From: Tepidiforma bonchosmolovskayae
GTDB taxonomy: Bacteria; Chloroflexota; Dehalococcoidia; Tepidiformales; Tepidiformaceae
Direction of reading: 5' to 3'
Assembly (NCBI RefSeq): GCF_008838325.1
Contig: NZ_CP042829.1
Coordinates: forward strand, 2,604,001-2,668,000
DNA length: 64,000 nt
A program made the translations under genes and the position numbers. Of this stretch, positions 52,684 through 53,078 are shown piece after piece (positions within the stretch are counted from its first letter, which is position 1; every line of letters begins with the position of its first letter). The notes beneath the pieces are model-generated. The model worked only from the letters and a program-made list of their open reading frames with translations. It had not been told where the DNA came from and ran no database searches.

Positions 52684-53078
52684 GTGTACTCCTCCTGTCC
52701 CCACCCGTAACCGGCAACGCCGATCTGGTGGCGGGTGAACGCCTCGCTGATCGCGAGGCCTGTGCTGTCGCTCACGTATGTCGAGCCGTACTTGTACGAG
52801 TTCGCGTACCAGTTCCCGCCGTACTGGTAGCTCAACTGGACGGTGGTCACCACCGCGCACGACGACGCAGCCGTACTTGCGACAGCGCCGACGCCCTGCC
52901 AGTTGGTCGTCCCAGACCAGGGGCAGTTCCACGAATCAGTGTTGACCGTCATGGCCGCTGCCAGGCCAGTAAGCCCCAGCCCGGCGACGGCGGCGAGAAG
53001 GGCGGCGGTCAGTCGAGAGCGCTGGACCCGTGTCTGTCTGTCTGTCTGTCTGTCTGTCTGTCTGCCTGGGTCATTCAC
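52671..53078 (-). CDS. Small secreted protein with tetranucleotide repeat in its signal peptide (partner A)
   Basis: A 135-residue predicted secreted protein. The N region is built by the repeat (GRQTDRQTDRQTR), followed by a hydrophobic core (about 24-41: TAALLAAVAGLGLTGLAA) and a mature part of about 93 residues rich in Tyr, Trp, Ser and Thr (QLSYQYGGNWYANSYKYG), with two cysteines (WNCPW and SSCAV) that could pair. The GTG at 53078 is in frame and has AAAGGAG ten bases upstream; an ATG four bases later (53074) is out of frame at the present repeat number. No known family was recognised. Confidence 0.68.
   Translation of the reverse strand: MNDPGRQTDRQTDRQTRVQRSRLTAALLAAVAGLGLTGLAAAMTVNTDSWNCPWSGTTNWQGVGAVASTAASSCAVVTTVQLSYQYGGNWYANSYKYGSTYVSDSTGLAISEAFTRHQIGVAGYGWGQEEYTWIP
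53033..53064 (+). repeat. (TCTG)8 tetranucleotide tract
   Basis: Eight perfect copies of TCTG (CAGA on the coding strand), extended by a half copy at 53031-53032. The tract starts 14 bases inside the partner A gene. Since four is not a multiple of three, loss or gain of one unit shifts the reading frame. Confidence 0.95.

Follow-up and report, generated by a model that had tools for sequence, protein, structure and literature searches.

Organization of the locus

The window, that is, the whole 64-kb stretch of Tepidiforma bonchosmolovskayae DNA that was analysed, contains two small overlapping minus-strand genes which form a two-gene module. The module lies between two genes that serve as syntenic anchors. 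From upstream to downstream the features are:

53198-55579, minus strand: copper-type P-ATPase (HMA, E1-E2 ATPase), upstream neighbour and syntenic anchor
53126-53154, minus strand: possible promoter, TTGACG - 17 nt - GGTAAC, with a weak -10; TTGACG and GGTAA are common to the relative KatS3mg062
53089-53097, minus strand: Shine-Dalgarno-like GGAAAGGAG, 10 nt before the GTG; kept in KatS3mg062, one substitution in the relative KatS3mg064
52671-53078, minus strand: gene 1, coding for 135 aa; predicted to be secreted, with two Cys and numerous aromatics; GTG start at 53078
53071-53078, minus strand: GTGAATGA, shortly before the tract, with GTG, ATG and TGA in three frames
53078-53076, minus strand: GTG start, in frame at 8 units
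53074-53072, minus strand: ATG, in frame at 6, 9 or 12 units
53073-53071, minus strand: TGA, the stop that shuts off the third frame when there are 7 units
53033-53064, minus strand: candidate slippage tract in which one unit shifts the frame; (CAGA)8 as read in gene 1, (TCTG)8 as read on the plus strand
52953-53012, minus strand: hydrophobic core LTAALLAAVAGLGLTGLAAA of the signal peptide, as predicted by eye; it follows the tract on the downstream side
52237-52683, minus strand: gene 2, coding for 148 aa, with a hydrophobic segment at the N-terminus; ATG overlapping the stop of gene 1
50962-52134, minus strand: ispG (GcpE), downstream neighbour and syntenic anchor

Gene 1 thus reads, in order, GGAAAGGAG, 10 nt, GTGAATGACCCAGG, (CAGA)8, CACGGGTCC and the residues after it, the hydrophobic LTAALLAAVAGLGLTGLAAA, and a body of ~93 residues that carries the two Cys and is rich in Trp, Tyr, Ser and Gly. 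A preliminary description of this DNA had reported eight perfect TCTG units in the 5' part of an open reading frame for a secreted protein, and both the count and the position proved exact. It had also placed the tract within the signal peptide; this holds for the n-region (residues ~6-16 of 135) but not for the hydrophobic core. Plus-strand open reading frames traverse the tract as well, but the minus-strand frame alone has a homologue that is conserved, a signal-peptide-like N-terminus and a ribosome-binding site. A scan for sigma-70 consensus promoters and terminators near gene 1 made no calls, the TTGACG-17-GGTAAC candidate included. Neither protein had a significant match in Pfam, NCBIfam, PADLOC and PDB sequence searches, and the structure predictions (mean pLDDT of 42 for gene 1 and 52.8 for gene 2) were too poor for a structure search. 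The Shine-Dalgarno sequence of gene 2 sits within gene 1, which together with the overlap of its ATG and the gene 1 stop makes translational coupling likely; translation of gene 2 is thus probably coupled to that of gene 1.

Unit number and reading frame

Computing the frames for 4 to 12 units revealed a simple periodicity: with 5, 8 or 11 units gene 1 is on via the GTG, with 6, 9 or 12 it is on via the ATG, and with 4, 7 or 10 it is off, short products resulting from GTG and ATG alike. Potential start codons in two frames, GTG and ATG within GTGAATGA, hence precede the tract, as in lic-type loci. The eight-base arrangement is by itself not rare; it is the position that gives it meaning. As candidate starts, the GTG appears better placed by spacing and the ATG stronger by codon. 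Unit number would be irrelevant if translation started past the tract, for instance at the CTG at 53012-53010, a codon found at the matching place in both the window genome and KatS3mg062. We consider such a start highly improbable: no Shine-Dalgarno-like sequence precedes this CTG, the signal peptide would lose its positive n-region, and the conserved Shine-Dalgarno-like sequence stands 10 nt before the GTG.

Rarity of the tract

When partial flanking units are included, TRF extends the tract to 53031-53068 (9.5 copies). For a 16-base TCTG pattern with at most 2 mismatches, dinucleotide shuffling gave an expectation of 0.03 per window; seven overlapping matches were observed, all of them at 53033-53064, and none of the shuffles reached this count. 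According to an order-4 Markov estimate, the chance of an 8-unit tract in the 2.75-Mb genome is ~1e-20. Within the 64-kb window no other simple sequence repeat (SSR) exceeded the thresholds that were applied. The wider census comprised a 695-kb genome sample and pattern searches. In the sample, no tetranucleotide array of more than 4 units was found besides (TCTG)8 and two further arrays had 4 units each, while the pattern search of all 2,746,948 bp found no (TCTG)5 or longer elsewhere. Among 393 genomes of the class, three contain at least five TCTG units: the genome of the window (G000), KatS3mg064 (G003) and the distant G244. The repeat exceeds chance length and lies in a 5' coding region. 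Moreover, its 4-nt unit is not a multiple of three and the tract is free of stops in all frames, encoding QTDR repeats whichever frame is read.

Arrays of a heptanucleotide, (GGGAGCG)n, 3-7 units long, are common in the same genome, for instance at the following places:

L053, 924-1043
L054, 4351-4385
L102, 3465-3608
L107, 11909-11957

The ones that were inspected lie in low-complexity sequence where no gene is evident, and they were set aside as candidates for further switches. A match in a phage-like contig (L041, viral contigs) was weak and was taken as chance.

A seven-unit copy in a close relative

The preliminary description had proposed comparing unit numbers in relatives. KatS3mg064 and KatS3mg062 (G005) are Tepidiforma metagenome-assembled genomes (MAGs) from the Katase hot spring in Japan. 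In KatS3mg064 the tract has 7 units against 8 in G000, the indel being exactly one repeat unit, and with 7 units the gene 1 frame is closed by the TGA that precedes the tract. The surrounding region is nearly the same in the two genomes:

51150-53960 (approximate): block of ~2.8 kb with ~96% identity to KatS3mg064, against 82.5% for the whole window

The two copies are identical from 52861 up to the tract, over 115 bp at 53098-53212 and over 506 bases at 53244-53749. Within gene 1 they differ by 3 synonymous and no nonsynonymous changes (dN 0), so that the coding body is intact in the off copy. Unit number therefore differs between close, otherwise matching relatives, in one pair; the two full tract lengths known (8 and 7) come from assemblies of two species and not from one population. 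Two outcomes had been named in advance as arguing against a variable switch, namely eight units in all relatives and absence of the open frame from them. Neither was seen: the relatives are not all at eight units, and the gene 1 body is conserved in KatS3mg062.

The copies share a recent ancestry. A block of ~96% identity in a background of 82.5% points to a recent interspecies exchange, probably of the locus between Tepidiforma species, and the change in unit number would postdate this exchange.

KatS3mg064 is a single PacBio HiFi metaFlye MAG (PMC9671151), and its assembly raises the question whether the 7-unit allele is an error, the tract being fixed at 8 (or the 8 being wrong). In the same assembly a frameshift splits mutS into two frames (G003:C1:694083-696603, L119), which may reflect either an assembly indel error or a mutator lineage and calls for caution on the 7-unit allele; in KatS3mg062, ispG contains indels. 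Some indel error in the KatS3 MAGs is thus possible. Nevertheless, the KatS3 assemblies used HiFi reads above Q20 (PMC9671151), what differs is a complete repeat unit, as opposed to a base in a homopolymer, and the ~2.8-kb block shows, apart from the tract, a single clear indel, which is 3 bp long and lies in the tail of the ATPase. An assembly error at the tract is accordingly quite improbable.

In G000 itself mutS and mutL are intact, and lost mismatch repair was rejected as a driver there. Tetranucleotide loops can escape mismatch repair, which makes the intact MutS and MutL a weak argument either way.

Conservation and loss of the module

The second MAG, KatS3mg062, has the same Shine-Dalgarno region as G000 and, after a TTG, a short interrupted CAGA-type tract, (ACAG)2 G (ACAG)2, at the same site. 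The TTG start is out of frame with gene 1, which could represent decay. Comparison of gene 1 between G000 and KatS3mg062 gave a dN of 0.096 and a dS of 1.2 (dN/dS about 0.08), a ratio indicative of purifying selection on the gene body. Gene 1 is present in 4 of 393 genomes of the class and gene 2 in 15 of 61 relatives. Ahead of several gene 2 copies lies the gene for another kind of small secreted protein, which has two Cys and a similar length in common with gene 1, and a shared descent of these proteins with gene 1 is plausible. A gene 1 homologue on another contig (L008, G019:C326) carries a TGA at the place of a Trp conserved in the Tepidiforma proteins (TDS*RCTW versus TDSWNCPW), so that this copy is interrupted.

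At the site between the P-ATPase and ispG genes the module is absent from three congeners (G001, G002 and G004), one of which, G001, retains a remnant of gene 2, namely its final 32 codons. Such losses would fit neutral slippage in a dispensable gene, in which a tract expanded by chance and frame changes were tolerated while the gene was being lost, with no selected switch. The truncation of gene 1 in G024, of another genus, would fit as well, as would the out-of-frame state of gene 1 in KatS3mg064 and, from the TTG, in KatS3mg062. However, no nonsynonymous change separates the out-of-frame KatS3mg064 copy from G000, and the deeper comparison retains the low dN/dS. In addition, the locus was probably carried between species by recent exchange, and in other genera different kinds of repeat are again seen close to the 5' end of the module. 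Neutral slippage is therefore an unlikely explanation.

Proposed mode of regulation

The reading that we prefer is that the (CAGA)8 tract is a contingency locus, at which gene 1 undergoes translational phase variation by slipped-strand mispairing; we put its probability at roughly three in four. During replication, mispairing would add or remove CAGA units just past the gene 1 start codon, each such change would move the gene 1 frame, and the changes would be reversible. With 8 units, translation from the GTG would yield the full gene 1 protein, and with 9 or 6 units the second start, the ATG, would do so. With 7 units neither start would reach gene 1, the frame being closed before the tract. 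Translation of gene 2 would probably drop whenever gene 1 is off. The selective benefit might be escape from phages, rivals or toxins that recognise the presumably secreted product. The on/off switch suggested in the preliminary description is thus favoured by comparison of genomes (8 versus 7 units, with the frame closed at 7). Against the contingency-locus reading counts the length of the tract, since eight units are short for a fast switch.

Relation to known systems

Phase variation by SSR slippage is a textbook mechanism, best known from human pathogens. The Tepidiforma locus resembles lic1A, lic2A and lic3A of Haemophilus influenzae in that tetranucleotide repeats occupy the 5' part of the coding sequence, and lic2A in particular in that they are preceded by potential start codons in different frames. 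In lic2A, initiation codons in more than one frame lie ahead of the repeats (PMC3116884), and another H. influenzae gene carries a 14-unit AGTC tract just past its start codon (PMC2651432). In lic-type loci the unit number sets expression, as it would at the Tepidiforma locus. In the host-adapted H. influenzae the lic targets are lipooligosaccharide enzymes, whereas the target here, in a free-living thermophile, is an uncharacterised predicted secreted protein. Furthermore, the Tepidiforma tract has only 7-8 units, and one such locus was found and not a set. In the open-access full texts searched, there was no report of SSR phase variation in Chloroflexi or Chloroflexota, although such reports could exist elsewhere. 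The mechanism is known, and the phylum, the habitat and the target family are apparently new. If the switch is real, it would operate in free-living hot-spring Chloroflexota with cultured congeners, and the question could be tested outside hosts, where the likely selective force would be phages or competing microbes.

Homopolymeric tracts at the module in other genera

In other genera of the Tepidiformaceae, a family of environmental and partly thermophilic Chloroflexota, long G or C tracts lie near the 5' end of the module. In G024 (L072) a G10 tract follows an ATG and is in frame with a 33-codon gene 1 remnant; 8, 9, 11 or 12 Gs would close the frame. This ATG has no clear Shine-Dalgarno sequence, and the G10 could alternatively be leader sequence. 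In G010 (L083) a C9 tract lies within TGGACG - 17 nt - TAGCCT, ~45 nt before the gene 1 start, and in G014 (L080) a G11 tract lies within TTGACA - 20 nt - TACGGT, ahead of a gene 1-type open reading frame. The hexamers of both are putative and were picked by eye. Poly-G and poly-C tracts in promoter spacers are a feature of Neisseria-type phase variation, to which the G11 of G014 and the C9 of G010, located by eye between putative -35 and -10 elements, bear a likeness. Runs of at least 9 G or C are rare in most of these genomes, about 44 being counted in 45 Mb among the matches listed (G014 and G030 left out). In 11.5 kb of sequence that precedes the gene 2 copies, 3 such tracts were seen versus about 0.01-0.02 expected, a figure that is only indicative, as it was derived post hoc, after the first case, and ignores any enrichment of homopolymers outside genes.

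Tentatively, and with somewhat less than even confidence, we suggest that a diversifying two-gene module of the Tepidiformaceae has repeatedly and independently gained hypermutable repeats, which would amount to convergent phase variation in free-living bacteria. Gene 1 would then encode a small secreted protein characterised by Cys and aromatic residues and gene 2 its conserved, probably membrane-anchored partner. The putative repeats would comprise the tetranucleotide after the start codon in Tepidiforma, the promoter-spacer G/C tracts in G010 and G014, and the near-start G tract in G024.

A supporting example from outside the window is the distant genome G244, which carries (CAGA)15 (L089, G244:C89, 1501-1560) in an open reading frame that matches an N6 DNA methylase domain (PF02384, E 1.8e-6); the sequence on one side of the tract is in a different frame from that on the other. 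This locus is similar to phase-variable DNA methyltransferases (mod, Type IIG), and the open reading frame looks like a phase-variable methyltransferase in another family of the Dehalococcoidia.
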